This document shows, in pieces, positions 1,798 through 21,747 of a DNA stretch of 22,331 nucleotides. Both the position numbers and the translations under genes were made by a program. The notes under the pieces were generated by a model that was not told where the DNA came from, made no database searches, and was given only the letters and a program-made list of their open reading frames with translations. Source of the DNA: a virus; the IMG/VR virus record IMGVR_UViG_3300036045_000065, positions 1 to 22,331 of that record; one strand, written 5' to 3'. Each line of letters begins with the position of its first letter. The first letter of the stretch is position 1.

Positions 1798-2101
1798 AGT
1801 GCTTAATGTGGACTTCACTGCTAATCTTGTAAAACATAACCGCTTTCTGGTTGTAATAGGCAGCAGTCATGTCTGCAATCTTAACAATTTCCTCCGATGT
1901 ACATGCCACCCTGACGGGGATCATTCTTTCTTCAAATAACTCCCCATCAGGACTTATCCATTGACCCTTAGCAGGGTTTAAGATCGTTAAACCCTTGCTA
2001 ATCTCACGCACTTTGTTGTCCCAGACACGATGGAATCGTGTTCGTACTGGTTTTCCATCTTTAATGGTGGGAACCAATATTTCCCAAAGATAGGTTTCCA
2101 T
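1784..2101 (-). CDS. Unknown protein, first gene after a motif copy
   Basis: A 105-residue protein starting at ATG 2101, with a weak purine-rich stretch (AGAGAC) upstream. Only about nine bases separate the start codon from the conserved ACTGTACCAAC motif, so if the motif is a promoter the leader is very short. The protein is mixed alpha/beta by eye: a strand-rich N-terminal half (YLWEILVPTI, then TRFHRVWDNKV) and a C-terminal AYYNQKAVMFYKI segment. No catalytic signature or known family is visible. Confidence 0.75.
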   Translation of the reverse strand: METYLWEILVPTIKDGKPVRTRFHRVWDNKVREISKGLTILNPAKGQWISPDGELFEERMIPVRVACTSEEIVKIADMTAAYYNQKAVMFYKISSEVHIKHYETP

Positions 2102-2110
2102 AGTGTCTCT

Positions 2111-2124
2111 GGTTGGTACAGTTT
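2111..2124 (-). promoter_or_regulatory. TAACTGTACCAACT motif, copy A
   Basis: The minus strand reads AAACTGTACCAACC here, with 12 of 14 positions matching the consensus. It overlaps the stop codon of the upstream gene (TAA at 2124-2126) and lies nine bases before the next start codon. It is the most degenerate of the five copies, with the ACTGTACCAAC core intact. It may act as promoter or operator. Confidence 0.6.
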
Positions 2125-2339
2125 TATGCAGCCTTTACTTCGTTTTCAGCCCAAGGTGGCAACCTCAACAGATCACTTGCTGGGCATACACTGATAATCG
2201 TGTAGCGATTTTTCTCCCAATAAAGAGCATCATGCATCGCAGAATTCATATCATTATAAGCCTTCATGGAAGGGGCGGTGCGCCCAGGTTCAATGAACAC
2301 GACAACAAAACCCTTCAGTAAACTAACATCCAGAGCCAT
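2124..2339 (-). CDS. Small unknown protein
   Basis: I chose the ATG at 2339 (71 residues) because AGAGG lies seven bases upstream. An in-frame ATG at 2414 would add 25 basic residues, but it has no SD and sits directly after the AAA+ gene's terminator. The protein has a hydrophobic strand (FVVVFIEPG), a helical middle (MKAYNDMNSAMHDALYW) and a second strand (RYTIISVCPA), which looks like a small alpha/beta fold. No family is recognised. It is followed at once by motif copy A. No clear promoter was found in the short gap after the terminator. Confidence 0.65.
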   Translation of the reverse strand: MALDVSLLKGFVVVFIEPGRTAPSMKAYNDMNSAMHDALYWEKNRYTIISVCPASDLLRLPPWAENEVKAA

Positions 2340-2420
2340 TGGATTTTCCTCTGCTTTCTTTGCCGATCTAAGATATTTTTTGGTATAAACAGGATGAATG
2401 CCTTGTGTAGTCATTTTATG

Positions 2421-2456
2421 AAAAAAGGCGGGCGAGGATTTATCCCGCCCGCCTTT
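2421..2456 (-). terminator. Rho-independent terminator after the AAA+ gene
   Basis: An 11-bp GC-rich stem (AAAGGCGGGCG with its complement, 2424-2434 and 2446-2456) has an 11-base loop. On the minus strand the stem is followed by a run of six U, formed by the A-run at 2421-2426. It lies 16 bases after the AAA+ stop codon. Confidence 0.92.
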
Positions 2457-2471
2457 CGGAGTTACATCGGC

Positions 2472-3911
2472 TTACTCGCCGTCGCTGTTGCAGCCAAGGC
2501 TTGCCAAGACCTTCTTGGCTTGCGTGCTGTGCCCCTGCGGGATGCGGACCAGCAGTTCAGGAGAATTCTTGAAAGCCTTCTCCTTCGGCTCAAGCATCGC
2601 AGCGTGCGGTTCCATCGCAGAGGCGGCGTTCAGAATGTCGTCTTCCTGAACATGCCCTTCGATGCCGTCTGCCAGCTTGCCCTGAGCGGCCAGACGCTGA
2701 ATCGCAGCGATCTTGGCACGTTCCAGCGTTTCACGAATGAAGGCCGGAATGCGATCCTTCAGCTTCTCGCCAACACGGGTGTAGTCCACCTTCGGGTTGA
2801 GCAAGCCACGACCATAAAGCTTAACTAGCTTAATGGCAGCTTCTGCGTCAGGACGCTTGACTTCCACAAGGGTGTCAAGACGGCCCATGCGGAGCAAGGC
2901 AGGGTTAATGTTCTCCACATGGTTAGTGGTGAACACCGTGATAATCTCACAGCCCTTAGTGTCAACACCGTCAAGGGTGTTAAGCACTTCGTCCATGCTC
3001 AAGCTACGTTCGCCATTGACCACACGATCAATGTCTTCAGCGAACAGAACCGCAGGGGCGTACTGTGCAGCGAACTGCAAGCCCTTCTTCAAATCCAGAA
3101 CATTGTCCAGATAGATGAAGGTGAAACCGTTACGCACCGACTTTAGTGCAGTAACATTGGCGGTCAGGGTCTTACCCGTACCGTAAGGACCGTACAGAAG
3201 CACGCCACGCTTCAGTGGCACACGGTACTTGCGGCAGGCATCAGCTTGTTCAATCGGCGTGAACAAACCGATGTTGATGGCATTTTGCACATCGTTGCCG
3301 AAGATCAGGTCGGACTCGTTGGTCCCACCCAAAGACATGAACTGCGGGCAATGCACGCTGGGATCAAAGTCGTATCCCTCACGCTGCCACTCAAAGCTAA
3401 CCTTGATGGCGCTGCCCTTGTAGATGCTCTTGTTGCGCAGGAACTGCTCGGTCAGATCGACCAGTTCCTTAACTTCAGCAGCGTGCTTCTGCTTCACCTT
3501 GCCGCTGATGATGAAGCGAGGGGTAGGCTCGGCAGCAATGCCGGTCTGGAGGAAACCAGCCACGCCTGGAATCTGTACACGGCCCCACGGCACCTGTAGC
3601 TTCTCGGTGCAGCTAACCGGCACGCCAATCATAGTTGGCGGGGTGCTGCCGAAGAAACCAGGGGTGGGCACAAGTTCTGCCCAACCATACTTAGACGCCA
3701 TAGCACGATGGAAGGCAACTGCGCCGTCCAGAGGGCTATAGTGAAGTTCGTGATGGATACCAACATCACGCTCGTCTTCCTCACGCTTACGACGCAGCCA
3801 TTCAATGGCTTCATCGAAGCTCATCTTGGGCGGCAGAATAATCTGCGTTCCCTGGCGTTGAATTTCCACATCCTTCACAGTGGTCTTAACGGCGGCAGTA
3901 GCAGTAGACAT
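2472..3911 (-). CDS. AAA+ ATPase with a long novel N-terminal region
   Basis: I chose the ATG at 3911 (479 residues) because AAAGGAG lies just upstream. A longer frame would translate the leader hairpin. Visible motifs are Walker A GPYGTGKT (241-248), Walker B VLFAEDID (288-295), sensor-1 FTTN (327-330) and a second-region-of-homology stretch ending RMGRLD (341-346) with arginine-finger candidates. This is a classic AAA module (Cdc48/FtsH/proteasomal type). Residues 1-200 form a region I do not recognise. There is no protease motif after the ATPase domain, so it may be an unfoldase or remodelling factor. It has its own promoter, a structured leader and a strong terminator, and it is visibly richer in G+C than its neighbours, which suggests high, separately controlled expression. 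Confidence 0.93.
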   Translation of the reverse strand: MSTATAAVKTTVKDVEIQRQGTQIILPPKMSFDEAIEWLRRKREEDERDVGIHHELHYSPLDGAVAFHRAMASKYGWAELVPTPGFFGSTPPTMIGVPVSCTEKLQVPWGRVQIPGVAGFLQTGIAAEPTPRFIISGKVKQKHAAEVKELVDLTEQFLRNKSIYKGSAIKVSFEWQREGYDFDPSVHCPQFMSLGGTNESDLIFGNDVQNAINIGLFTPIEQADACRKYRVPLKRGVLLYGPYGTGKTLTANVTALKSVRNGFTFIYLDNVLDLKKGLQFAAQYAPAVLFAEDIDRVVNGERSLSMDEVLNTLDGVDTKGCEIITVFTTNHVENINPALLRMGRLDTLVEVKRPDAEAAIKLVKLYGRGLLNPKVDYTRVGEKLKDRIPAFIRETLERAKIAAIQRLAAQGKLADGIEGHVQEDDILNAASAMEPHAAMLEPKEKAFKNSPELLVRIPQGHSTQAKKVLASLGCNSDGE

Positions 3912-3927
3912 TACGAAAGTCTCCTTT

Positions 3928-3979
3928 GGTGTTCGGACGAAGTTAATCTTCATCCCTTGATGAACTTCGGCGGAACACC
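3928..3979 (-). promoter_or_regulatory. Leader hairpin next to the AAA+ gene's SD
   Basis: Two nested paired segments, GGTGTTC with GAACACC (3928-3934 and 3973-3979) and CGAAGTT with AACTTCG (3938-3944 and 3963-3969), form a long imperfect stem in the leader. The stem ends one base before the SD sequence (CTCCTTT on the plus strand, 3921-3927). This could control ribosome access, protect the 5' end, or bind a regulator. The function is inference; the pairing is visible. Confidence 0.65.
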
Positions 3980-4012
3980 TTTTGTTCTCGCCTTAGCATT
4001 GTTGCTGTTCTT

Positions 4013-4040
4013 GTTATACCACTCGGTCGCTTTTTGTAAA
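4013..4040 (-). promoter_or_regulatory. Sigma-70-type promoter P2 for the AAA+ gene
   Basis: The minus strand has TTTACA (4035-4040), a 16-base spacer ending GTGG, and TATAAC (4013-4018). The -35 box touches the base of the serpin terminator stem, so the TTT of the box doubles as the start of the U-tail. The predicted start near 4006 gives a leader of about 95 bases containing the 3928-3979 hairpin. Confidence 0.8.
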
Positions 4041-4067
4041 GCGAGCGGGAAATAATTTCCCGCTCGC
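4041..4067 (-). terminator. Rho-independent terminator after the serpin gene
   Basis: A perfect 12-bp stem (GCGAGCGGGAAA and its complement) with a 3-base loop lies 11 bases after the serpin stop codon. On the minus strand it is followed by UUUACAAAAA. It separates the serpin unit from the AAA+ unit. Confidence 0.88.
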
Positions 4068-4078
4068 TAATCATGACA

Positions 4079-5161
4079 TTAAGGATTTGTTACACGGCCA
4101 GAAAACAACACAGTGTTGGTTTCATTGTTGCGGATGAAAAACACGAACGGGTGATCCGCATTAAAGATGCATTGCTTCGGCATTCTAACAGAAGTACAAC
4201 GCATCATACCAACAGCGGTAGCAGCAGCCGCTTCCGTTCCCTCTTCGTCAACTTGCACAAACGCCTTGTGAATAACCTCGGAAATCTTCAATGCATCAGC
4301 AGAAGTGATGCCAGAAAAATCTGCGAAGTCACTGAACGCTAGTTCAGCGCCCATTTTCTTCAGCGTATCGCCCATCTTGTACTCGGTTTCCAGCTTGAAC
4401 TTGGGCAAGGAAACTACGACCTTATCTTCATAACAAAGCGAATTAACCGCATTGTTATAAGTGGTTTCAAGATCGGGCAAAGTGTCAAGACCACGATCAG
4501 GCAACACCACAAGCATTGAGAGCTTTTCTCCCTTATAAGGGAGGTCGAGAGCCTTGAAGTTGCTGCCTTCGCCGTAAAAATACTCACTGGTAATGTGCAT
4601 CGTTGGCACATTCTTTTCGCCATCAGGCGAATAGAAAACGTCATCTTTTGTTCGCTTCTTATCGAATTCCGTTTTCCACTTGCCCTTAAAATAAATGGCA
4701 TTGGTCAGAATCAGTCGTGTTTCTGGGTTAACAAAATCACGAGTGATAATGGTGGGGATTTTCCCCCTAGTATGTTCATTGCACCATCCATTGACCGAAT
4801 CAACAGCGGCATCCGGCGCATTCACATAATCAACGGAATTAACACCGCCGCCATAAATGCTGGCGACTCGGCTCTTGTAGCTTTCGTCAAGCGGGAATCC
4901 ATCCTGACACCACAGAGCATTGGCGGTTGTAAGTTCGTAGGGACGCTCTGAAGATGAATTAACTTCATTAACCAGAGCCTTATACTCAGAATCCTCGCTG
5001 ATTTCCAGAAGGGCATCGAGCGATTTTTTGGTTTCGCCCTTCGCACCAGCTTGACACATACCCAAAGCCAACTGCACGCTGAATCCAGAATAGAAACTAT
5101 TCTCTTTCAGCGTGCCAAGCTGCGGATACAACTTAGAAGCAAATTTCAACGTATTCGACAT
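4079..5161 (-). CDS. Serpin, probably an inhibitory serine/cysteine protease inhibitor
   Basis: The 360-residue product is a full-length serpin without a signal peptide, starting at an ATG behind GAGAGGA. Visible family marks are NAIYFKGKW (154-162), an LPKFKLE strand (252-258), the hinge EEGTEAAAATA (306-316) and the serpin signature FNADHPFVFFI (333-343). The hinge has small residues at the positions needed for loop insertion, so the protein is predicted to trap proteases by the usual suicide mechanism. The loop runs on through MMRCTSV. By position and by resemblance to human SERPINB6 the scissile bond is Arg321-Cys322, which points to a trypsin-like target, although Cys322 could itself be P1. 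With no export signal it should act inside the cell or be released at lysis. No clear promoter of its own is visible. Confidence 0.96.
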   Translation of the reverse strand: MSNTLKFASKLYPQLGTLKENSFYSGFSVQLALGMCQAGAKGETKKSLDALLEISEDSEYKALVNEVNSSSERPYELTTANALWCQDGFPLDESYKSRVASIYGGGVNSVDYVNAPDAAVDSVNGWCNEHTRGKIPTIITRDFVNPETRLILTNAIYFKGKWKTEFDKKRTKDDVFYSPDGEKNVPTMHITSEYFYGEGSNFKALDLPYKGEKLSMLVVLPDRGLDTLPDLETTYNNAVNSLCYEDKVVVSLPKFKLETEYKMGDTLKKMGAELAFSDFADFSGITSADALKISEVIHKAFVQVDEEGTEAAAATAVGMMRCTSVRMPKQCIFNADHPFVFFIRNNETNTVLFSGRVTNP

Positions 5162-5194
5162 TGTTCATTCCTCTCAAGGTCTTCCATTATTGCC

Positions 5195-5221
5195 AACCCA
5201 AATATAACGCATATTTGGGTT
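5195..5221. repeat. Perfect 11-bp inverted repeat before the serpin gene
   Basis: The arms AACCCAAATAT (5195-5205) and its complement (5211-5221) surround a 5-base loop. It sits between the stop of the 28-residue peptide gene and the serpin SD. It lacks a U-tail on the minus strand, so it may be a weak terminator, a processing stem or an operator. Confidence 0.6.
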
Positions 5222-5227
5222 GCTTAG

Positions 5228-5314
5228 TCACTTAACATACATGACTAAGAAAAAAGCAAGTGCGGCTATCACAAGGATGATAGCCCACTTGAATTCATCC
5301 CACAACTTGTTCAT
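5228..5314 (-). CDS. 28-residue single-span membrane peptide
   Basis: A short frame starts at an ATG behind AAGGA, six bases away, and ends at a TGA at 5228-5230. The product begins MNKLWDEFKW, continues with a run of about 16 hydrophobic residues (IILVIAALAFFLVMYV) and ends in Lys. It looks like a one-span inner-membrane peptide with a charged amphipathic N-terminus. It overlaps the 3' end of the upstream gene by 20 bases. Small membrane peptides of this kind in phages include holin-like, lysis-inhibition or host-membrane modulators, but nothing here decides the role. Confidence 0.7.
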   Translation of the reverse strand: MNKLWDEFKWAIILVIAALAFFLVMYVK

Positions 5315-6020
5315 TTTCTTTCCTTAACTCCGCTAGATCGGCAGCAAATTCCTCAAAAGGACGTTGTGCGCCAAGGCAGTCGATAATAAAGAACTTTTCC
5401 ATCGACAAAGCGGTGAACGTAGCCCTGATGCAGTGATAATACTGCTGATCGGGTGATAGTTTCATAGCATTTGAGAGCAACTTACCATTATCAGTTTCGG
5501 CCAACGGCGTCTCTTCCATGATCTTTCTCAAAGCATAAGGGATATTCCCTTCAATTCTGTTCTCTCCATCCTCATTCATGATGTAATTCTTGTCTTCAGC
5601 CCAAGAGAATTTGGTTCCCTTGCCGTGATAAGAATAAGGAATTGAAGCCAAACACAGTTTGTCTTTCCTATCAAGCGTTACAATTGACAGACAATCGCTA
5701 ATAAGGCCAGCTTCGCACGCTCCCTCTTCATCGCACATTCGCTGCATCTCTCCTGGCTTCCAGTTCTTTTCGTCGCCAGCTTTCATGGAAGCCATATGTG
5801 AATCACAACACAGAGCAATGCCATTGATTCCAATGGCGACACGGCACATATGAGCGGCCTTTAGAGCCAACATCTTGTCAATTTGCGGCGCAAATATGCT
5901 CGCAACTTGAATGCCATCTTTCTCGATAATGAGATATGGAGGCATATCACCACGCTCGGTAATATCACACCAAATTTTCTTGCTCTCTTTGCAAGTCTCA
6001 ATAATTTGCTTAATGTCCAT
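5295..6020 (-). CDS. Unknown 241-residue protein
   Basis: The protein starts at an ATG behind GGAGAA, directly after the RNA ligase stop. It is rich in Cys (for example MCRVAIGINGIALCCDSH near residues 58-75, and CDEEGACEAGLISDC) with a hydrophobic core pattern suggesting a compact alpha/beta fold. The C-terminal part (CIRATFTALSMEKFFIIDCLG) is helical. No catalytic motif that I can name is present. The stretch IALCCDSHMASMKAGDEKNWKPGEM resembles small unannotated phage proteins only in general style. It is co-transcribed with the RNA ligase. Confidence 0.8.
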   Translation of the reverse strand: MDIKQIIETCKESKKIWCDITERGDMPPYLIIEKDGIQVASIFAPQIDKMLALKAAHMCRVAIGINGIALCCDSHMASMKAGDEKNWKPGEMQRMCDEEGACEAGLISDCLSIVTLDRKDKLCLASIPYSYHGKGTKFSWAEDKNYIMNEDGENRIEGNIPYALRKIMEETPLAETDNGKLLSNAMKLSPDQQYYHCIRATFTALSMEKFFIIDCLGAQRPFEEFAADLAELRKENEQVVG

Positions 6021-6022
6021 GT

Positions 6023-6679
6023 TTATTCTCCGTATTGTTTCCAGCCAACGCCGAATCGGTCTTTTAACTCTTGGATGTAAGCCTCAGTTTTTATTTTGGC
6101 CATCCAGAGCGTGTGATTGAAACCATCACCGCCTTTACACACTACACCTTCCTTGACGGGGCACTTACCTTCTCGCACTTCCTTGATGAATTCTTCTGTC
6201 AAGATTCCATCATAAATCACTTCAGCAACATGCAAGTGACCAAAAGCGTTGACGAAATTTCTAGGACTTACAAAACCTCGTTTGTATATGTTCACGTCGA
6301 ACAACATGAGGTCTTTTGGATCATTGTTATCAACTTTGATACCAATGCTTGCAAGCTGTTCAGGAGTGTGCCAGCCAGCAAAAGAATGTGGGCCAACAAA
6401 CTCGCAAAACACAGTTGCGCTCTGGGGTTTCTTGAATTCTGGAAAGTCTGTGAGAATTTTGGCCAAATCATAAGCGTATTTCTTGTGAAATATCTCTATG
6501 GCACAGCCAAAATCTGGATCGTCTTTGTCAAAGAATCTTCGGCGGGTTGCGTACTTATACCAACCACGCTTCTTAGACCATTCAAAAGACAAATTGCTCC
6601 CATCGTACTTGTTAAATACAATGCATTGTTGCCCGATGGGAGCAAGTTTTGATCCGCTAATTGACGGATATTCTTTCAT
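6023..6679 (-). CDS. RNA ligase (nucleotidyltransferase superfamily)
   Basis: I chose the ATG at 6679 (218 residues) because it forms an ATGA overlap with the upstream stop. A TTG 33 bases further up is less likely. Motif I is KYDGSN with the adenylated lysine at residue 24. A CEFVGPHSFAG block (motif III region), LMLFDV (IIIa), KEGVVCKGG (motif IV) and MAKIKTEAY (motif V) follow in the right order. The protein is the size of an isolated adenylyltransferase domain, shorter than T4 Rnl1 or Rnl2, and resembles stand-alone phage RNA ligases that begin with a similar 'KxYPSI' segment. It probably seals 5'-phosphate and 3'-OH RNA ends, for example in repair of tRNA cut by host anticodon nucleases. 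No polynucleotide kinase gene is visible nearby. Confidence 0.92.
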   Translation of the reverse strand: MKEYPSISGSKLAPIGQQCIVFNKYDGSNLSFEWSKKRGWYKYATRRRFFDKDDPDFGCAIEIFHKKYAYDLAKILTDFPEFKKPQSATVFCEFVGPHSFAGWHTPEQLASIGIKVDNNDPKDLMLFDVNIYKRGFVSPRNFVNAFGHLHVAEVIYDGILTEEFIKEVREGKCPVKEGVVCKGGDGFNHTLWMAKIKTEAYIQELKDRFGVGWKQYGE

Positions 6680-6879
6680 TCCTTTTTTCCCGATCCTTGT
6701 TTCCAAGGCCAAGCCGGTGTAGTCTCCAACTCTCCGACCTGCTCACAAGAAACAGTCATTGGATGTACTGTCAGACATTGCTTGGCAGTTTCCACGATAT
6801 TCACCGGAGAAGTCGTAGTCCAGTGCTTTAATCGCACTCGCAGCACAACTTCTGTTTCGTAAAGAGTTTGTTCACTCAT
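6676..6879 (-). CDS. Small unknown protein upstream of the RNA ligase
   Basis: The ATG at 6879 has a strong GAGGAGAA SD and overlaps the upstream gene by 8 bases, so I preferred it to a TTG at 6894. The product is 67 residues with a strand-rich N-terminal half (LYETEVVLRVRLKHW) and a Pro/Trp-rich C-terminus ending GSGKKE. No family is recognised. Its stop overlaps the ligase start by four bases, so the two are likely translated together. Confidence 0.75.
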   Translation of the reverse strand: MSEQTLYETEVVLRVRLKHWTTTSPVNIVETAKQCLTVHPMTVSCEQVGELETTPAWPWKQGSGKKE

Positions 6880-7294
6880 CTTCGTTCTCCTCAAATTGTT
6901 TTGGTTCTACCGTGCCCTTTTTCGGGCCTTGAGAGTGGTAAACTTCAGACACATCAGAGTTTGGAGGCGGGACACTAAAGAAAGTTACTCTGTAATGAAC
7001 CCCGTCCAAAAATCCATCTATGAAAACCAGCGGGACCATTGAACCAATTGCGCTATCGAAAATAACTTTCGGCAATTTATCAAACTTACGCATCAACTTG
7101 CCAACATTGATGCTGAATCTTGAAAAGACTACGCCTCCATCGTGTTCGCCCCCAACAATCTCCCTCAAGGATGGATAGGCCACTATATGCCATACATCAT
7201 CGTCAAGCACCGCACTAAACGAAAAACTTCCACCGTCCCAACATCGTGCGATAATTTTGGCCAAAGATTCCAATTCTTTAGGAGGACTGTTCAT
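6872..7294 (-). CDS. Unknown protein, 140 residues
   Basis: I chose ATG 7294 with GAGAG upstream. A TTG at 7309 overlapping the upstream stop (TTGA) is the alternative. The middle is rich in strands (FSFSAVLDDDVWHIVAY, VVFSRFSINVGKL, VPLVFIDGFLDGVHYRVTFFSV), which suggests a beta-sandwich or beta-barrel core, and the C-terminus is acidic (EENEDE). I see no catalytic or metal-binding signature. Confidence 0.78.
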   Translation of the reverse strand: MNSPPKELESLAKIIARCWDGGSFSFSAVLDDDVWHIVAYPSLREIVGGEHDGGVVFSRFSINVGKLMRKFDKLPKVIFDSAIGSMVPLVFIDGFLDGVHYRVTFFSVPPPNSDVSEVYHSQGPKKGTVEPKQFEENEDE

Positions 7295-7305
7295 GTTTTG
7301 CTCTC

Positions 7306-7725
7306 TCAATTTAATTCACTTACATTGTAAGGTTCAATGTACATCATATCCCCTTCTTTCAATTTCTCAGCAAGTTCTTTCAACTTGGGAATTAGTATAG
7401 CAACTTCCTCTTTGCCCAATGAATTATCAAGCCTGCCCTCTTCTGCTATTTGAATACTTTGCATAATCGCAAAATAAGCAGCACTGCTAATAATGTACAA
7501 CCCTTTCGGGGGGATTGTATTCACACGATCATTTTGTTGATTGCTCCAATTGGCAGCAATTTCAACGACCTTGCAATTATGAAGACATGCTTCCACCAAG
7601 GAGTAACGAGACTCCAAATCAATGTAAAGCCCCGTAGCATCCAAAACCAAAACAGTTTGTGATGCGTTCCAGATATACTGAAGATCAGTGCTGCTAATGT
7701 CAATTGCTTGATTTGGAAGTTTCAT
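7306..7725 (-). CDS. Unknown protein, 139 residues
   Basis: It starts at an ATG behind GGGG, 4 bases after the solenoid gene's stop. The sequence alternates strands and helices (QTVLVLDATGLYIDL, CKVVEIAANW, GLYIISSAAYFAIMQSI) and ends in a charged helix (IPKLKELAEKLKEGD). The spacing and SD support a real gene. No function is recognisable. Confidence 0.78.
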   Translation of the reverse strand: MKLPNQAIDISSTDLQYIWNASQTVLVLDATGLYIDLESRYSLVEACLHNCKVVEIAANWSNQQNDRVNTIPPKGLYIISSAAYFAIMQSIQIAEEGRLDNSLGKEEVAILIPKLKELAEKLKEGDMMYIEPYNVSELN

Positions 7726-7729
7726 AAAA

Positions 7730-8158
7730 TTACCCCTTTTTCATGCGAATGTCGCCGCCTGCTTCGACGCTACCACTAACATTACCACAATTAACGTCGC
7801 CGCCTGCCTCAACATCCTCTTTTACATTCCCGCACGTTACGTCACCGCCTGCATCGACAGAACCATTGACTTCAGTACAAGTCACGTCACCGCCTGCATC
7901 CACATTTGAACCGACGCTTTGACAGGTTACGTCGCCACCGGCTTCAACCTTGCCAGTTACATTACCATGAACAACCACTTCTCCACGTTGTACATTGACG
8001 TTAATTGCACCGCCAACAACTTCGATCTTAAAGTATTTGTTGTCGGGATATTCACCCTTGTACTTCTCGCCGTCAATGTACACAACACCATTAAGCACAG
8101 ATACGCTTGCGCCTTGTGGGACTTCATAAGAAGTACCATTGATAATCACCGTCTGCAT
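7730..8158 (-). CDS. Repeat protein, predicted beta-solenoid (bactofilin-like look)
   Basis: The ATG at 8158 has an AGGAG SD; longer in-frame starts would run into the plus-strand gene. Residues 1-50 (starting MQTVIINGTSYEVPQGASV) form a strand-rich cap of a kind I recall from phage proteins. Residues from about 67 on are 15-residue repeats of the form V-(D/E)-A-G-G-D-V-T-C-x-x-V-x-x-x, five full units with a Cys in nearly every one. The short period with Gly-Asp turns predicts a narrow beta-helix with a Cys ladder, and it may polymerise as bactofilins do. It could also be an adhesin-like or capsid-associated rod. The underlying DNA repeats with a 45-base period. Confidence 0.85.
   Translation of the reverse strand: MQTVIINGTSYEVPQGASVSVLNGVVYIDGEKYKGEYPDNKYFKIEVVGGAINVNVQRGEVVVHGNVTGKVEAGGDVTCQSVGSNVDAGGDVTCTEVNGSVDAGGDVTCGNVKEDVEAGGDVNCGNVSGSVEAGGDIRMKKG
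7751..7952. repeat. Five 45-bp tandem repeat units inside the solenoid gene
   Basis: Related segments of the form GTCRCCRCCKGCNTCNAC begin at 7751, 7796, 7841, 7886 and 7931, exactly 45 bases apart. They encode the conserved (D/E)AGGDVTC core, while the intervening bases diverge. The exact spacing implies expansion by duplication and the possibility of length variation between relatives. Confidence 0.88.
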
Positions 8159-8186
8159 TAAATTACTCCTGCCTAATAGATAAGTT

Positions 8187-8438
8187 ATGGAATTCAAACA
8201 ATGGCTTATTGAGAACGAGGGGGATATACGCTTCACTGCCTTCGCCAAAGACGGCACAGTCGTCGTATACATCAATGGCAAAAGATATGTTTACATAACC
8301 GATGCCATGTACCACGATAAGTGGAAGCGAATGATCCCTTATTCTCCCTGGAAAGTCTTGAATATCATCAAGACTCAAGTTGCCAAAGGCCAAGCGAACA
8401 TGGTTGAACCTATAATATCACAAAATTCAGCTTTGTAA
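8187..8438 (+). CDS. Small unknown protein on the plus strand
   Basis: An 83-residue frame with good protein-like composition: MEFKQWLIENEG at the start, then GTVVVYINGKRYVYITDAMY and SPWKVLNIIKTQV. The 'dGtV.VyI.GkrY.Y' strand pair and the helical 'P..vLN.IK' segment resemble small proteins I know from phage and planctomycete genomes. The competing minus-strand frame here has only a TTG start and no SD. The gene is convergent with the TrpF-like gene, overlapping its end by 12 bases, and divergent from the solenoid gene. Its SD is weak (AGATAAG) and no clear plus-strand promoter is visible. A minus-strand promoter overlaps its last codons, so it is likely covered by antisense transcription. 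Confidence 0.72.
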   Translation: MEFKQWLIENEGDIRFTAFAKDGTVVVYINGKRYVYITDAMYHDKWKRMIPYSPWKVLNIIKTQVAKGQANMVEPIISQNSAL

Positions 8439-8439
8439 A
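8412..8439 (-). promoter_or_regulatory. Sigma-70-type promoter P6, antisense to the plus-strand gene
   Basis: On the minus strand TTTACA (8434-8439), a 16-base spacer ending GTGA, and TATTAT (8412-8417). It begins just before the TrpF-like gene's stop codon, the same placement as P1 and P3. Transcripts would cross the plus-strand gene for about 250 bases before the solenoid gene start. A 7-bp inverted repeat (8355-8374) lies in this leader. Confidence 0.65.
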
Positions 8440-9149
8440 GCCACTACTTCCAAAACTGCACGGCATTTATCCAACAAAAACTTAGAATCATCTTCTGATC
8501 TAATTTTTGTCTCCATGTCAATCCAAATCGTGCCGTCGCCAACCACGTCCTCAATGCGTTTAAGCTGTTCTTTGATGTTCTCAGGCCCAAGCCCACCAGC
8601 ATACCCATTCAGCTTGGGGTGAAGTGGTTTTGGCCAAGAATCAGGCACCACCCCCTGACCAGCCGAACGATCAAAAAGGGGATAACAAATCAAGTCTTGC
8701 CCCGCTGCCTTGTGATACAGATGATCCGAAATGCCATCCATTTGGAAAATGAATTGCTTTTTCAATAGGTTGAGAAAATACATCATCTCACGCCAATGAT
8801 TCGGAAAATCATTAGGCGGGTTACTATGAAAATTAAGCTGCAATCTTGTTAGGTATTCAAGCAATTCGCCACGACTACGCAAAAATCCATCTGGCGGGTC
8901 ATCAAATAAACTTTCCAACCAGCGACCTTGCAAGTGACCAGCCACTTTGGTGTTCACATACTGTGCCTGTTTGCTGAAATCCAGCATCCAATCTTTGGAG
9001 GGGAACCTTGGCCTCTTGCCTTCATTTGCCTTAGAAAGTAAAAGCCCCCACTCAGTAGACACATTAGGGTAATCTTCGACTACCCTAAGTATGTCTTCTG
9101 GCTTTACACTCTCGTCAGCACCAGTAAAGGTAACAGTTTCAATTTTCAT
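8427..9149 (-). CDS. TIM-barrel protein resembling phosphoribosylanthranilate isomerase
   Basis: A 240-residue protein with the segment order of TrpF: a first strand (MKIETVTFTG), internal strands KVAGHLQGRW (68-77), LQLNFH (103-108) and FIFQMDG (133-139), then CYPLFDRSAGQG (155-166), NGYAGGLGPENI (181-192) and IWIDMETKIRSED (208-220). In TrpF the AGGL-PEN loop binds phosphate and a D-x-S-S-G-V-E segment follows; here the latter reads DMETKIR, and the KICG start with the catalytic Cys is absent. It is therefore a barrel relative whose usual activity is doubtful. It overlaps the helicase stop by ATGA, so both are made together. Its substrate is unknown. Confidence 0.8.
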   Translation of the reverse strand: MKIETVTFTGADESVKPEDILRVVEDYPNVSTEWGLLLSKANEGKRPRFPSKDWMLDFSKQAQYVNTKVAGHLQGRWLESLFDDPPDGFLRSRGELLEYLTRLQLNFHSNPPNDFPNHWREMMYFLNLLKKQFIFQMDGISDHLYHKAAGQDLICYPLFDRSAGQGVVPDSWPKPLHPKLNGYAGGLGPENIKEQLKRIEDVVGDGTIWIDMETKIRSEDDSKFLLDKCRAVLEVVALQS

Positions 9150-10894
9150 AATACATCCACAGTTTCCCTAGCAAGGGCAGTTTTGCTAGTAAGGATTTCG
9201 TGCAAATGAAGATCAAGAGGATGATTGCTCACCATCTTCGTAATCAGCACGTTGTTCTTTTGCCCAATGCGCAGCAAACGTCGCTCGGCTTGCTCGTTAA
9301 GGCCAGGAGTCCAATCCAAATCCACAAACAAGGCATGATGCCCATAAGTAAGATTGATTGCAACACCACCGGCCTGAATCGTTAGACCAATACCCAGCAA
9401 CTCGCCAGCTTGAAACTTATTAACAATCTCCTGCCTTTTGGCGGGACTGGTATCGCCAGTGATGACAGCCCAGCCCTTACGCTTGGCAAGCGTGTCAATA
9501 GGCTCCCTGTGTGCGCTAAACACAACAAGCGGCACATCTTGGTCTTCGCAATCTTCCACATATTCTAACATTGCAGGAATGCGAGACGCAGCCAATTCCT
9601 GACGAATATGTGAAAACTGCTTGAAATCTGGCAGCGGCGAAGAATTACTGAAGTAAGAGGCGTACTTATCCCAACTATTATCCAGATTACCCTTCAGTTT
9701 ATCAGACAATTCATCAATAATCATCGTCTGATACTGGATTTCAGGCAAGTCTGGAAGAACGTCTGCCCTTAGTCTACGCAACATTACGCTGCGAAGAATA
9801 GCATGTGCCTTCGGTGAAGGCTTTGCATACTTCCACTCATGCCCGAATCGACCGTGGGGCACACTGAATGCTTCAACGAAATCGTTGAAAGTACCGAATG
9901 TATCACCGAAACGATTGAGGGCAACAAGCAGCCCCATAAGGTCATTAACCTTATTAAGAAGCGGCGTGCCAGTAAGGAACCAAACCTTCTTGCACTTATA
10001 TGCAAGTTGCTTGATTTTCTTGTGCTTGGCAGTTTTGTTGCTTTTTACAGCGTGAGCTTCATCGCAGATCAAAACCGTGCGGCGAGCGCAGTTAGAATCT
10101 TCTTGATTCCAAGTAACAAACTTATCCTTTGCTTCAGGGACAAGCCATTTGGGTAGAACGTCGTAATTAATGATTACAGCTTCGCCAGGGTTTGGCCACC
10201 TGAATCCTTTACGAGTCCCAAGCACCTGAACTTTGTATTCAGGACGCCAAATTTCAAATTCCTGCTTCCAATTATACTTGGCATTGGCTGGGCATACGAC
10301 AAGCACCGCCTCATTAGGCTCTAGTGCCATAATCGTTTCACAGGTTTTACCAAGACCCATCTCATCGCCAAGAATTGCTCTGTCTTGCTTGGACAACCAA
10401 TCAACGCCCTTTACCTGATAGGGGTAAAGGCCAGACTTAACCGCCTCTTTGGAGCGGCTATCATCAACAAGCAGGCTTTCGTCAACTTCCAACTGAAGTT
10501 GCGATGCAATTCTGAGAACTTCTTGACGATCCTTTAGTGAAGTGCTGACATACCAAGCCTTTTCATCAGACTTGTAGAATCGCCCAGGCATAGACCTAAG
10601 CAGATTGAGAGTGGCATCGTTGTGGACCCACGGAGTAATAGTAACTTTACCAGTGGCCTCAAGGCGGCGAACAGCCTGCACGGTGGGCTTAACCACGGCA
10701 GGCTGTGAAATGACAGGCTTTTTGACAGGAGAGGGAGCGGGAGTCGCTGGCCCTTTGGCCTCTTCGGGCTTATGAGATGTACAGTAAGTAAACCAGCGAT
10801 TCCCGCTTTCAAGACGTGCGTAACCCTGTTGCGATTTAACTTGGCAACCACAAACGGCACAATACTTGTCATACTTGTTACGAATCATCACCAT
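9146..10894 (-). CDS. SNF2-family helicase/translocase, SMARCAL1-like
   Basis: The 582-residue protein starts at ATG 10894 behind GAGGGA. An N-terminal zinc knuckle (C12, C15, C38, H41) is followed by a Pro-rich linker and a region near 80-142 with the shape of a HARP domain (ITPWVHNDATLNLLRSMPG, then KAWYV). The SNF2 motor has a Q-like LYPYQ (156-160), Walker A GDEMGLGKT (176-184), DEAH (278-281), TGTPL, the motif V segment QAGGVAINL, and QAERRLLRIGQ (motif VI). HARP plus SNF2 is the SMARCAL1 annealing-helicase layout, so a role in phage replication-fork remodelling or recombination is likely. Motif copy B lies 39 bases upstream. Confidence 0.95.
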   Translation of the reverse strand: MVMIRNKYDKYCAVCGCQVKSQQGYARLESGNRWFTYCTSHKPEEAKGPATPAPSPVKKPVISQPAVVKPTVQAVRRLEATGKVTITPWVHNDATLNLLRSMPGRFYKSDEKAWYVSTSLKDRQEVLRIASQLQLEVDESLLVDDSRSKEAVKSGLYPYQVKGVDWLSKQDRAILGDEMGLGKTCETIMALEPNEAVLVVCPANAKYNWKQEFEIWRPEYKVQVLGTRKGFRWPNPGEAVIINYDVLPKWLVPEAKDKFVTWNQEDSNCARRTVLICDEAHAVKSNKTAKHKKIKQLAYKCKKVWFLTGTPLLNKVNDLMGLLVALNRFGDTFGTFNDFVEAFSVPHGRFGHEWKYAKPSPKAHAILRSVMLRRLRADVLPDLPEIQYQTMIIDELSDKLKGNLDNSWDKYASYFSNSSPLPDFKQFSHIRQELAASRIPAMLEYVEDCEDQDVPLVVFSAHREPIDTLAKRKGWAVITGDTSPAKRQEIVNKFQAGELLGIGLTIQAGGVAINLTYGHHALFVDLDWTPGLNEQAERRLLRIGQKNNVLITKMVSNHPLDLHLHEILTSKTALARETVDVL

Positions 10895-10912
10895 CTGTGC
10901 TTCCCTCAGAAA

Positions 10913-11107
10913 TCATGGTTTGGGGCTAACGGTAGTTGGTACAGTTATGGCGAGCAGCTTCCTTCTGAAGCACTCTACACGCTCTCGCCATTCCTCTTCC
11001 TGCTTGTCAGCCCAGCGACTATCGGACCCTGTTCCAAGGAAATCCACAGGTGCATCTTCGATTAAGGAATCAAATTCCTTAATGAGAGCATCCGCATCCG
11101 TGGTCAT
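10913..11107 (-). CDS. Small acidic protein, unknown
   Basis: I chose ATG 11107 (64 residues), with a weak GGA upstream, overlapping the previous gene by 29 bases. An ATG at 11134 would overlap more. The sequence MTTDADALIKEFDSLIEDAP, then a charged helix (ADKQEEEWRERVECFRRKL), looks like a small helical protein. Its last codons (ITVPTT) are encoded by motif copy B, so the 3' end is also a regulatory site for the helicase gene. Confidence 0.6.
   Translation of the reverse strand: MTTDADALIKEFDSLIEDAPVDFLGTGSDSRWADKQEEEWRERVECFRRKLLAITVPTTVSPKP
10934..10947 (-). promoter_or_regulatory. TAACTGTACCAACT motif, copy B
   Basis: A perfect copy on the minus strand, 39 bases before the SNF2 helicase start codon. 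It lies inside the final codons of the preceding small gene. It may act as a promoter or operator for the helicase and TrpF-like pair. Confidence 0.7.
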
Positions 11108-11837
11108 GGCAATGTCCGTCTTCGTCTTCTTCATTGTTGACACTTTCAGGGTGAGGACACCCGTAAGCCTTACAGCCCACAAGAGGAACAAGTGCGCCAT
11201 GTTCTCGGAACACGTTTTCCTTGTTCGTTAAGTAGTGATAAGCCAGCCTGATGGCACAAGCCAAGCTATTATCACTATGCCCCTCATCAATGCCAGGGCA
11301 AGCCTTGACCTGATCTTTCCAGTCTGACTTCTTAAACTTCTCCAACGCCTCAAGCGTCGGGAAGGTAGTAGCGAACAACACCGCCTGTTCGCAGACCATT
11401 AGTTCGTAATCCTCAAACTCCCAACGAAAGTCAGGGTTCGTATCCTGAAACTTCTTCAGACGACGCTGAAAGACTTCAGGCAATGCAGCAATGCGGGCAT
11501 CATGTTTTTCCTTGTTGGCAAAGAAGGCTTCTTGCTTACGCTGCTTCTCAGCAGAAACCCAATTCTCATGTGCCTTCCTGTCTTCGTCTTCAGTCCTATA
11601 AAAAACCTTCTGACCGTTCAAGAATAGACCACGGACAGTGTAGCCAATGCCCTTGCCATAGAACCTAGCAATCTGGCCTACCTCTGGTACAACGCCATTC
11701 TCAGGAACATAGAAAGACCAACCATCTTCTCGGACGACGGACCAGCCTTCCGTTTCCTTTTTGACAGACTTGAGTTTCACATCTTCGTATTGAAGATCAT
11801 CATCGGGATAAGTGTGCAGTAGATTATGAGTATTCAT
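11079..11837 (-). CDS. Unknown protein with a Cys/His-rich metal-binding tail
   Basis: I chose ATG 11837 (252 residues) with GAGG five bases upstream; the first gene after promoter P3. The N-terminal half has strands around GWSFYVPENG and VGQIARFYGKGIGYTVRGLFLNG, like a small beta domain. The middle is a charged helix (KQEAFFANKEKHDARI) and a helical block (FPTLEALEKFKKSDW). The last 30 residues carry many Cys and His, ending DGHCHDHGCGCSH, a likely metal-binding or metal-delivery tail. Family unknown. Confidence 0.82.
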   Translation of the reverse strand: MNTHNLLHTYPDDDLQYEDVKLKSVKKETEGWSVVREDGWSFYVPENGVVPEVGQIARFYGKGIGYTVRGLFLNGQKVFYRTEDEDRKAHENWVSAEKQRKQEAFFANKEKHDARIAALPEVFQRRLKKFQDTNPDFRWEFEDYELMVCEQAVLFATTFPTLEALEKFKKSDWKDQVKACPGIDEGHSDNSLACAIRLAYHYLTNKENVFREHGALVPLVGCKAYGCPHPESVNNEEDEDGHCHDHGCGCSH

Positions 11838-11877
11838 CGGAACCTCGGTGTTTGTGTTGTTTGGACTCCACACCACT

Positions 11878-11905
11878 GTTCTACCACGGGAACTTCGATT
11901 GTAAA
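11878..11905 (-). promoter_or_regulatory. Sigma-70-type promoter P3
   Basis: Minus strand TTTACA (11900-11905), a 16-base spacer ending GTGG, then TAGAAC (11878-11883). The predicted start near 11871 gives a leader of about 34 bases to the gene starting at 11837. It lies just after the last gene of the long operon. Confidence 0.75.
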
Positions 11906-12963: not shown

Positions 12964-13410
12964 CTATGGTTCGTACACAATCAGCTTGAAGGTTTCGGGC
13001 AACTTTTTGTGAAAGATTTCAATTAACTCTCTGACTTTTGGCCAACTTAGCCCACCGTTGCCACAACCCAAAGGGGCCAGGGCAATAGATGTAAATTCCT
13101 TTTCTGCAATGACACGCTCAAGGTCTTCAAGACCTGATACGATGTATGAATACTCGGAAGGATTTCTCCAGTGTGCTTTGGTTGGGAAGTTAATTACATA
13201 CTTGCCATTATTTTCCCAAAGCCAAATCTTACCTGTACTAACTTCGCCATTGCCACAAGCAAGACGATAAGCCTTAAACATCGAAGGGTAACGATTTTTG
13301 AAAGCCAAAGCGAGTCCCTTGCCCATTACACCAACACAATTGATTGTGTTAGTAATGGCATCGACTTCATTGGTGGCATCAAAAATGTTACCCTTACGAT
13401 ATTCAATCAT
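12964..13410 (-). CDS. Macrodomain, DarG/TARG1-type ADP-ribosylglycohydrolase
   Basis: A 148-residue single macrodomain. The start binds ADP-ribose through KGNIFDA (6-12) and NTINCVGVMGKGLALAFK (21-38), followed by INFPTKAHWR (73-82) and APLGCGNGGLSW. The combination NCVGVMGKGLA plus FPTKxHWR is typical of the DarG/TARG1 branch, where the lysine in the latter (K78 here) is the catalytic residue that removes ADP-ribose from thymidine or carboxylate sites. DarG is the antitoxin of the DarT DNA ADP-ribosyltransferase, a known anti-phage system, but no DarT gene is next to it. A phage-borne enzyme that erases DarT marks is the attractive reading; metabolite clean-up is the alternative. Confidence 0.93.
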   Translation of the reverse strand: MIEYRKGNIFDATNEVDAITNTINCVGVMGKGLALAFKNRYPSMFKAYRLACGNGEVSTGKIWLWENNGKYVINFPTKAHWRNPSEYSYIVSGLEDLERVIAEKEFTSIALAPLGCGNGGLSWPKVRELIEIFHKKLPETFKLIVYEP

Positions 13411-13763: not shown

Positions 13764-14069
13764 TCACTCCATTTCTTTGGCCGAATAAACGTAATCCAGC
13801 CAGTTGTAAGAAAATTTATACCTTTTACCTTTTTCAATCGGGATTGGCATGGCCCCATTGAAATTCATTCTTCTTCCATCTTGAAAAGTAATTACATTTT
13901 TACGATGCATACCATACTGGAACTCTGTATTGCTTACAACGCCTTCACAATATGCGGGCCAGAACAGCAAATACGAAATGCCACAGACCCCCGAAACAAA
14001 GAGCAGCCACAACACGGCGGCTTCAAATTTTGATTTCGGGGCAACCTTTTCGGGTTTTTGTTTTCTCAT
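13764..14069 (-). CDS. Single-span membrane protein
   Basis: A 101-residue protein with a basic N-terminus (MRKQKPEKVAPKSK), one hydrophobic segment (AAVLWLLFVSGVCGISYLLF, about residues 17-36) and a strand-rich tail (YGMHRKNVITFQDGRRM, then YKFSYNWLDYVY). Positive residues before the span suggest the tail faces the periplasm. It starts in an ATGA overlap with the CoaB/aldolase-like gene. Function unknown. Confidence 0.82.
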   Translation of the reverse strand: MRKQKPEKVAPKSKFEAAVLWLLFVSGVCGISYLLFWPAYCEGVVSNTEFQYGMHRKNVITFQDGRRMNFNGAMPIPIEKGKRYKFSYNWLDYVYSAKEME

Positions 14070-17471: not shown

Positions 17472-18272
17472 TCACTTGGTAAAATCCATAAGATACTTTA
17501 CACCTTTTGAAGCAGCATCCGCTACATCAAAAATGTAGAACGGATCATCTTTCATTCTCTTGATCCAAGCACCCATTTGCTCCTGATGATTCAGGTTGTG
17601 TTCGTACTTAATTGGATCAATTCCAAATTCAGCACAAAGGTATGCAGTGCCGATTTCGCTTCTCAGTTCACAACTGGCATAATCTGCTTCATAGCCTAAC
17701 CTAATCTCAGACCAGTGCATGAGTTCGTGAAATAGTGAGTAATAGTAGCCAGGAAGACCACCGGCACCAATTACAAACTGTTCCCTGAACGGTAGGGCAA
17801 TGTGGTCGAATGGCGGGTAGTAATAGCGGGACTCGTTGCCGCCGTACTTAATCTTTGCTTTAGACTGCACGGCCATTTTATCGGCAGCTTCGTGCTTTAC
17901 TGCTTCCTTGACAATCTTGCGGTCGCCATCAAACCCGCCAACCGTTTGTTCAATGTTGAATACGGTCCACGGCTTTAGTTTATTAATACCACAATTATCT
18001 CGCTTGTAAAGCGATAGACGTGCGCCCCAACTGCCAGCTTGGACAGACGTAGGACGTGGATTGATTTTGACACCCAGCATTTCCCATTGAAGCAGGGTTG
18101 CCCACCAATGGGATTTAAGCTCAAGCTCGCTTGAGATTAGATTCAGAATGATAGGATTGATGCCATCAAAAGCAGCTTTGGACACGAAGTTCTTGTGAAC
18201 CTGTCCGTACCACGGCATTTGCTTATTTTTTAATGAATCAATGATCCTTTCATTAATAGAAAGATGATACAT
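17472..18272 (-). CDS. ArdC-like antirestriction protein with zincin-type metallopeptidase domain
   Basis: A 266-residue protein. The N-terminal half has the ArdC-type pattern (FDGINPIILNLISSELELK, then a Trp-rich helix HWWATLLQWEMLGVKINP), the region that binds single-stranded DNA in ArdC. The C-terminal half has the zinc site HELMHW (182-187), with a downstream glutamate in ELRSEIGTAYLCAEFGI (202-218) as third ligand, then a QEQMGAWIKRMKDDP helix typical of the family. ArdC proteins protect incoming DNA from host restriction enzymes and are often on plasmids and phages. The SD is GGGAG. A possible internal promoter lies at 17983-18010. Confidence 0.87.
   Translation of the reverse strand: MYHLSINERIIDSLKNKQMPWYGQVHKNFVSKAAFDGINPIILNLISSELELKSHWWATLLQWEMLGVKINPRPTSVQAGSWGARLSLYKRDNCGINKLKPWTVFNIEQTVGGFDGDRKIVKEAVKHEAADKMAVQSKAKIKYGGNESRYYYPPFDHIALPFREQFVIGAGGLPGYYYSLFHELMHWSEIRLGYEADYASCELRSEIGTAYLCAEFGIDPIKYEHNLNHQEQMGAWIKRMKDDPFYIFDVADAASKGVKYLMDFTK
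17983..18010 (-). promoter_or_regulatory. Possible internal promoter P5 in the ArdC-like gene
   Basis: Minus strand TTTACA (18005-18010), a 16-base spacer ending GTGG, then TATTAA (17983-17988). It matches the other promoters closely, including the CGCTTTACAA start, but sits inside a coding region, so it could be chance or could drive the distal operon genes. Confidence 0.4.
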
Positions 18273-20799: not shown

Positions 20800-21747
20800 T
20801 TACGCAACTTCCTTGCGAGAGTACGCCTTCTTGACCTTATCCAACGCACTCTTCAGCACGTTGTTGATGGTCATGCGGCTGTACGGGCGTCCCGTCTTTG
20901 GGTTGTGGGTGTTCTTGGCAAGGTCGGCCTGCCAACCATAGTACGGGTACATGGTGCAGAGAATCACTTCTCGCTCCAATTCCGTAAGGCCAGCACGGTC
21001 AATCGCTTCGTACAGTTCGTAGTTGCAGGGGACGGTATCACGCTCGCCGTCGATGCCACAACGTCCCTCAGTGTAGTCCACGACAGAGGATTCTTCCCCT
21101 TCCTGAACAATCTGAGAACCGTTGATGATCTTGCGACGTGCATCCTTCAAAACCGCCAATTCACTCTCAGTGATGTTCATCTTGGCGTATACTTCATCGT
21201 CCGACACCTTCCCGTTGAAGGAGTTGGCGGTCTTGTCGAAGAGACGAACCAACTTCATCGCCTCATTGGTCAGAGGAGTGAAGGGGTTGGCCTTGTTCGC
21301 AGCAGTGGTCAAACGACGAGTGATAGCGTGCCACGCAAAGGTGGTGAACGCCGTCTCTTCCGTATAGGAATAGATTGCGTCAAGCACTGCCATCAACGCT
21401 TCCTGATAGAAGTCGTCAATCTCGCAAACGCCACCGTAGTTACGCTTCCCAAAGGAAAGGGCGTGCTTACGAGCCAACGGTGCATGGCCACAGAGCATCT
21501 TGTATTCGATGCTGCGCACAGCCTGAATTGACGGGATTGCTGCAACGATTGCAGCCGCCTGATTGTCGGTGATTCCAGGCCAATCAGATGCCTTGAAAGA
21601 CTTCTTGAACAGCTTGATGCGAAACGCTCGCTGCTCCATTCCCAGGTCTTCAGCAAGCAACTTGAGGTTCTTGTTGCCCTTGCGCATGATCGCAAGGCAG
21701 GCTTCCAACTCACTCTCACTCAGCTTCACGGTCGGCAAAGTAGTCAT
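20800..21747 (-). CDS. Sigma-70-family RNA polymerase sigma factor
   Basis: A 315-residue protein starting at ATG 21747 with AAGGAAAG upstream. Region 2 is clear at about 110-150 (DDFYQEALMAVLDAIYSY, then FTTFAWHAITRRL), and region 4 at about 250-308 (LTELEREVILCTMYPYYG, then YSRMTINNVLKSALDKV). Residues 1-60 contain a helix-turn-helix-like segment. It should bind host core polymerase and redirect it to phage promoters. It lies beside three of the five TAACTGTACCAACT copies and behind the best host-type promoter in the window, so it is probably an early gene that switches on a later set. The spacer between regions 2 and 4 is long and acidic. Confidence 0.94.
   Translation of the reverse strand: MTTLPTVKLSESELEACLAIMRKGNKNLKLLAEDLGMEQRAFRIKLFKKSFKASDWPGITDNQAAAIVAAIPSIQAVRSIEYKMLCGHAPLARKHALSFGKRNYGGVCEIDDFYQEALMAVLDAIYSYTEETAFTTFAWHAITRRLTTAANKANPFTPLTNEAMKLVRLFDKTANSFNGKVSDDEVYAKMNITESELAVLKDARRKIINGSQIVQEGEESSVVDYTEGRCGIDGERDTVPCNYELYEAIDRAGLTELEREVILCTMYPYYGWQADLAKNTHNPKTGRPYSRMTINNVLKSALDKVKKAYSRKEVA

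Follow-up and report, generated by a model that had tools for sequence, protein, structure and literature searches.

We found that the window, by which we mean the whole 22,331-base IMG/VR virus record analysed here, carries a serpin gene that is intact in sequence and predicted fold, has an inhibitory hinge, lacks an export signal and sits as an accessory gene within the genome of a huge phage. In our judgement it is an evenly balanced proposition that its product acts within the cell to inhibit a protease of the host, the most likely candidate being an anti-phage defence protease. The features of the gene on which this reading draws are as follows.

4079..5161, minus strand: gene for a 360-aa serpin, running from ATG to TAA and encoding no signal peptide
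4196..4246, minus strand: hinge to canonical P1 (residues 306-322, EEGTEAAAATAVGMMRC), matching the P17-P9 motif, with Cys322 as canonical P1 and Arg321 as P2
4133..4165, minus strand: C-terminal serpin signature FNADHPFVFFI (residues 333-343, from the translation)
5170..5174, minus strand: Shine-Dalgarno-like AGAGG in the sequence, 8 nt before the serpin ATG

The earlier note on this DNA had placed a full-length serpin at positions 4079-5161, and both coordinates and description hold, the gene lying on the minus strand and being read from 5161 to 4079. Its 360-aa product covers nearly the whole Pfam Serpin model (PF00079; residues 4-360 aligned to positions 3-370 of the 370-position profile), and this full-length domain scores 355.9 bits (E 3.8e-106) against a cut-off (gathering score) of 27 bits, so that the match is not due to chance. 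The C-terminal signature, which we take to agree with the PROSITE serpin pattern, is complete, and the shutter residues S25, S28, N154 and H298 are intact in the alignment and presumably correspond to S53, S56, N186 and H334 of α1-antitrypsin. The hinge EEGTEAAAATA, found at residues 306-316 of the translation, is likewise whole, as had been proposed, and its EEGTEAAAA portion (residues 306-314) matches the P17-P9 hinge motif ExGTEAAAA of inhibitory serpins (PMC8233489). Structure prediction, which the earlier note had suggested as a check, gave a confident serpin fold (AlphaFold2, pLDDT 86.9, pTM 0.83) in which residues 308-321 are modelled as a strand (4A) in sheet A, that is, in the loop-inserted state. 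Moreover, the top Foldseek matches in the PDB are all serpins (TM 0.80-0.85, the best about 0.85), many of them cleaved or loop-inserted. By sequence, chloropin (8gxv) ranks first among PDB entries with an E value of 2.5e-64, and SERPINB3/4 nearly ties with it as the best match. The inserted strand of the model is compatible with an inhibitory mechanism and does not prove one, yet we regard it as very probable that the window serpin is competent as an inhibitor. Its hinge and predicted fold are as in the prokaryotic inhibitory serpins (chloropin, the Methanolobus and other archaeal serpins, and miropin), with the Methanolobus serpin being 43% identical to it.

Prokaryotic inhibitory serpins are mostly exported or lipid-anchored, whereas the window serpin has no leader. 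Its start is fixed by the AGAGG 8 nt upstream and by a TGA in the same frame (nucleotides -6 to -4 ahead of the ATG), which excludes an N-terminal extension or a hidden signal peptide, and the earlier claim that a signal peptide is missing is therefore well founded. As background we used 69 cellular serpins from the genomes of two prokaryotic phyla. The hydrophobic N-terminal segment that usually accompanies export was present in 60/69 of these and a lipobox-like motif in 24/69, and neither occurs in any of the three phage serpins (that of the window and those of the viral contigs L024 and L027, described below). This agrees with the N-terminal transport peptides noted on most prokaryotic serpins (PMC8233489). 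As the window serpin carries no export signal, action inside the infected cell is most likely, and more specifically in the cytosol of the infected bacterium. In this respect it is like the vertebrate clade B serpins (SERPINB6, SERPINB3/B4 and SERPINB1), which are also leaderless and cytosolic.

The reactive loops of the three phage serpins read EEGTEAAAATAVGMMR-C in the window, EKGTEAAAATAVVMMK-C in L027 and EEGTEAAAATSVVMAR-L in L024. We found Arg or Lys at hinge position 16 in all three but in only 5 of the 69 cellular serpins, and [KR]C at positions 16-17 in two of the three compared with none of the 69, both counts being post hoc and based on only three phage sequences. In α2-antiplasmin and C1-inhibitor it is position 16 that acts as P1, and SERPINB1, which has Cys as a P1, uses both positions 16 and 17. 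In the bacterial serpin chloropin the canonical P1 has been measured to be position 17 (PMC10090351), and Cys322 is therefore the canonical P1 of the window serpin and Arg321 its P2. Chloropin itself is secreted and has Arg at P1 (PMC10090351), unlike the window serpin with its canonical P1 Cys and its Arg at P2. Arg321 occupies hinge position 16 and becomes P1 only in a shorter register, so that, judged from the loop sequence, the target would be trypsin-like if position 16 is used and elastase-like or broader if position 17 is. The trypsin-like target suggested by the earlier note is thus plausible in the 16-residue register alone, the canonical P1 being Cys322 and not Arg. The same note had likened the loop's MMRC (residues 319-322) to SERPINB6. 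The resemblance to the MMMRC of SERPINB6 exists but is superficial, since the window has one residue fewer before the Arg, which places Arg321 at P2.

Around the serpin the window has the character of a huge-phage fragment. All of its main genes lie on the minus strand, and PHROG matches point to a phage helicase, a sigma factor, an RNA ligase, a clamp-loader AAA protein and an anti-restriction protein, which agrees with the tightly packed phage-type genes described earlier. No near match to the window was found among GenBank phages, and no phage hallmark gene (terminase, capsid) among the main proteins tested of this 22-kb stretch. The neighbours that matter here are listed below.

2472..3953, minus strand: AAA ATPase that follows the serpin downstream and shares 61% identity with its counterpart in LR756511
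5295..6020, minus strand: uncharacterised gene of 241 aa that separates the serpin from the RNA ligase
6023..6712, minus strand: RNA ligase that borders the serpin slot on its other side, with 50% identity to the LR756511 ligase
12964..13410, minus strand: DarG-like macrodomain (PADLOC DarG, 213.8 bits; Pfam Macro)
17472..18272, minus strand: anti-restriction-like protein with ArdC N-terminal domain and MPTase-PolyVal
20800..21747, minus strand: phage sigma factor of the sigma-70 family

The sigma-70-family factor points to a bacterium as the host. By protein comparison, seven window genes (the AAA ATPase, the RNA ligase, orf 6872, the macrodomain, the ArdC-like gene, the clamp-loader AAA gene and the sigma factor) recur in unchanged order in the uncultured 595-kb phage LR756511.1 (positions 141,980-153,566), with 29-61% identity to the window proteins. 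Six of these seven, all except the AAA gene beside the serpin, keep that order in the 390-kb contig IMGVR 3300036766_002289 (L013), at 33-57% identity. Both relatives possess a large terminase, and while they have these collinear genes in common with the window, the serpin is in the window alone, with none anywhere in LR756511 or in IMGVR 3300036766_002289. In the AAA/RNA-ligase slot of LR756511 two small unrelated genes replace the serpin and the 241-aa gene, the latter having no Pfam, PADLOC or NCBIfam family and no tblastn match in LR756511. Because collinear, terminase-bearing relatives do without it, we consider the serpin an accessory gene. Its codon usage correlates with that of the rest of the window at 0.836, as close as for core genes, and this speaks for a long residence in the phage. 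Among the neighbours, the AAA ATPase has homologues of about 43% identity in 70-kb Salmonella, Shigella and Klebsiella phages, inconsistently named as ATP-binding protein, cell division protein or metalloprotease. The macrodomain is kept in both huge-phage relatives, has no DarT partner among the proteins tested, and is a candidate anti-DarT counter-defence gene.

In the mechanism that we propose, the serpin would remain in the cytosol of the infected cell, where a host protease would cut its exposed loop at or beside Arg321/Cys322, upon which the cut loop would snap into β-sheet A and leave the protease covalently trapped. The target would most likely be a regulated defence protease, trypsin-like or caspase-like, of the sort that activates killing effectors such as nucleases or pores, and with one serpin molecule spent per protease molecule abortive infection would be kept from firing. 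Pro-nucleases have as their partners the caspase-family CanA and the trypsin-like proteases that are fused to HamA, Avs1a and LmuA, and protease activation of defence nucleases has been demonstrated for Hachiman, AVAST and canu (PMC12799240). Defence proteases stand out as possible targets among the cytosolic proteases with an exposed active site that are of consequence to a phage. The HamA trypsin cuts after Ile (PMC12799240), a cleavage that the window loop does not mimic, so that HamA is no obvious match. The DarG-like macrodomain, the ArdC-like protein and the RNA ligase nearby would suit a counter-defence region, which is suggestive, and these neighbours are conserved also in the relatives that have no serpin. 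Of the interpretation offered in the earlier note, a host defence protease as the target is the part that fits best.

A cytosolic serpin could also serve a housekeeping purpose, shielding freshly synthesised phage proteins from the proteases of host protein turnover or restraining a protease of the phage's own with no link to defence, and a huge phage presumably makes many proteins over a long infection; phage T4 PinA, an inhibitor of Lon, is a functional precedent. We consider this reading unlikely, though it deserves to be taken seriously, since Lon, ClpP, FtsH and HslV keep their active sites in chambers, out of reach of a folded serpin, and since the lack of the gene in close phage relatives fits better with a variable arms-race gene. 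That prokaryotic hub serpins have been proposed to control cytoplasmic proteolysis (PMC8233489) counts in its favour.

Serpins, single-use protease traps otherwise known from animals, animal viruses and some microbes, proved to be as unusual among phage genes as the earlier note had held, and no more than three carriers came to light among prokaryotic virus-like genomes. The window serpin belongs to no PHROGs family, keyword searches of the open-access literature found no description of a phage serpin, and in the viral fold library Foldseek gave no tailed-phage serpin match, the informatively named serpin matches all being from eukaryotic viruses (pox, mimivirus-like, baculovirus and others). 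A tblastn search of 50,697 phage records returned two serpins, in MT835510.1 and MT835777.1 (GenBank 'Bacteriophage sp.', scaffolds from human faeces); both were set aside, being lipobox serpins beside a TolC-like protein, an RNA methyltransferase and a phosphofructokinase, and the records are probably mislabelled bacterial DNA. Six serpin pattern scans over 2.9 million viral contigs, which were based on conserved motifs and hence are not exhaustive, gave five serpin contigs besides the window, two of them convincing. The first (L027) is a contig of 430,229 bases in which a leaderless serpin is accompanied by a terminase, a ParB-like gene and other phage-type genes. The second (L024, IMGVR_UViG_3300033149_001352; 136,445 bases) has, along with its leaderless serpin, two genes for TFIIB and several for RNA ligases, as well as inteins and a match to a phage major head protein, and reads as an archaeal tailed-virus-like genome. 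The latter contig also encodes radical SAM enzymes and glycosyltransferases, and its serpin lies directly downstream of an RNA-ligase-like gene. Two other IMG/VR serpins (L026, L028) were set aside for their signal peptides and bacterial-type neighbours, and a third (L025), inside a 3285-aa frame, was kept apart from the convincing cases. This frame, at 2028-11885 of the 128-kb, GC-rich viral contig IMGVR_UViG_3300047994_000617, has a complete serpin domain of 350.9 bits at residues 519-887 and no other Pfam domain. A scan for NA.YFK returned one new contig (L030) without a serpin, and one for DHPF.F.I returned 33 contigs with a serpin only in the already known L023; among the viral contigs, a search for serpins close to that of L027 gave only the self-match, and the exact window-serpin query gave no match.

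In two trees the window serpin joins that of L024 (SH-aLRT 92; 93/58 in the careful tree), and the two fall within the prokaryotic part, apart from the eukaryotic set, on long branches. The nearest sequences to the window serpin are archaeal and bacterial, at 43% identity at best. AU tests did not reject the three phage serpins as a single clade (p 0.31), nor did they reject joining the window serpin with eukaryotic serpins, SERPINB4 included (p 0.285 and 0.547). The phylogeny proposed in the earlier note as a check thus gave a weak grouping with an archaeal-virus-like serpin rather than with vertebrate clade B, with a eukaryotic join left unrejected by the AU tests. On the simplest reading of the sequences, a prokaryotic serpin would have been acquired with its leader lost or already absent. 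The long branch, the gene's absence from two collinear relatives and the small number of carriers might also be expected of a passenger, gained by recombination, briefly kept, and non-inhibitory or neutral. This seems to us improbable, for the reading frame, hinge and shutter residues are intact, identity of 43% at best to cellular serpins together with phage-like codon usage implies long residence without decay, and leaderless serpins recur in unrelated viruses.

Release at lysis requires no signal peptide, and secreted bacterial serpins such as miropin inhibit host proteases, for instance plasmin (PMC8233489), so that the window serpin might act outside the cell, where it would shield progeny virions or surviving kin against proteases of the environment, of grazers or of animal guts. 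We judge this quite improbable, given that the protein has no export or virion-targeting signal, that a soluble, diffusible inhibitor would be diluted once released, and that nothing in the window indicates an animal-gut habitat; the protection from grazer or gut proteases put forward in the earlier note finds no support here and fits poorly with a cytosolic protein. Finally, although bacterial serpins are indeed met with in mislabelled 'phage' records (MT835510, MT835777), an assembly chimera or bacterial contamination is so improbable that we reject it, as phage genes collinear with LR756511 flank the serpin on both sides on one strand and its codon usage matches that of its neighbours.

Returning to the serpin as an intracellular trap for a defence protease, we note that the poxvirus CrmA/SPI, giant-virus and baculovirus serpins share with it the combination of a viral genome and an intracellular serpin. 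They differ in that structural identity is only 12-28%, the window's host is a bacterium, and the loop is another one, CrmA having Asp at P1. CrmA is the precedent for a viral serpin directed against host death proteases, and covalent serpin traps are a standard means by which animal viruses disable protease-driven cell death. The CrmA precedent is cited also in PMC8233489. Tentatively, and with rather less conviction than we attach to the proposal for the window serpin itself, we suggest a parallel to poxvirus CrmA, in which phages and viruses of archaea would have taken up serpins to serve as suicide traps against the defence proteases of their hosts. Such serpins would form a leaderless anti-defence class, marked by a basic residue beside the scissile bond, and their targets would be the trypsin-like or caspase-like proteases on which bacterial and archaeal immunity draws. 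The family is well known, and the window serpin is most likely doing what the family does; what is new is the huge-phage and tailed archaeal-virus-like setting, the leaderless form, and a possible use against prokaryotic immunity. Proteases have recently been recognised as switches of bacterial antiviral immunity, and a phage serpin would bring this together with the strategy of animal viruses as a general, mechanism-based inhibitor of protease-driven immunity, and would bear as well on the scattered occurrence of serpins across prokaryotes.

Two hairpins lie next to the serpin gene.

4040..4068, minus strand: 13-bp hairpin just after the serpin stop, -23.4 kcal/mol, z -5.06, terminator-like with a weak U tract
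5194..5222, minus strand: 13-bp hairpin in the gap between the serpin and the gene upstream of it, -16.8 kcal/mol, z -2.5

The consensus promoter and terminator scan of the window was at chance level, and the hairpin at 4040..4068 is absent from the list of the consensus terminator scan. Elsewhere in the window, positions 7730-8281 encode a bactofilin-like protein with repeated AGGDV motifs, its Pfam score of 20.6 being below the cut-off of 27.9, and positions 14066-15355 encode a CoaB/DFP-type domain fused to a class II aldolase-like domain. This fusion is 67% identical in LR756511, yet lies there about 103 kb outside the collinear block, which indicates that gene order has been rearranged.
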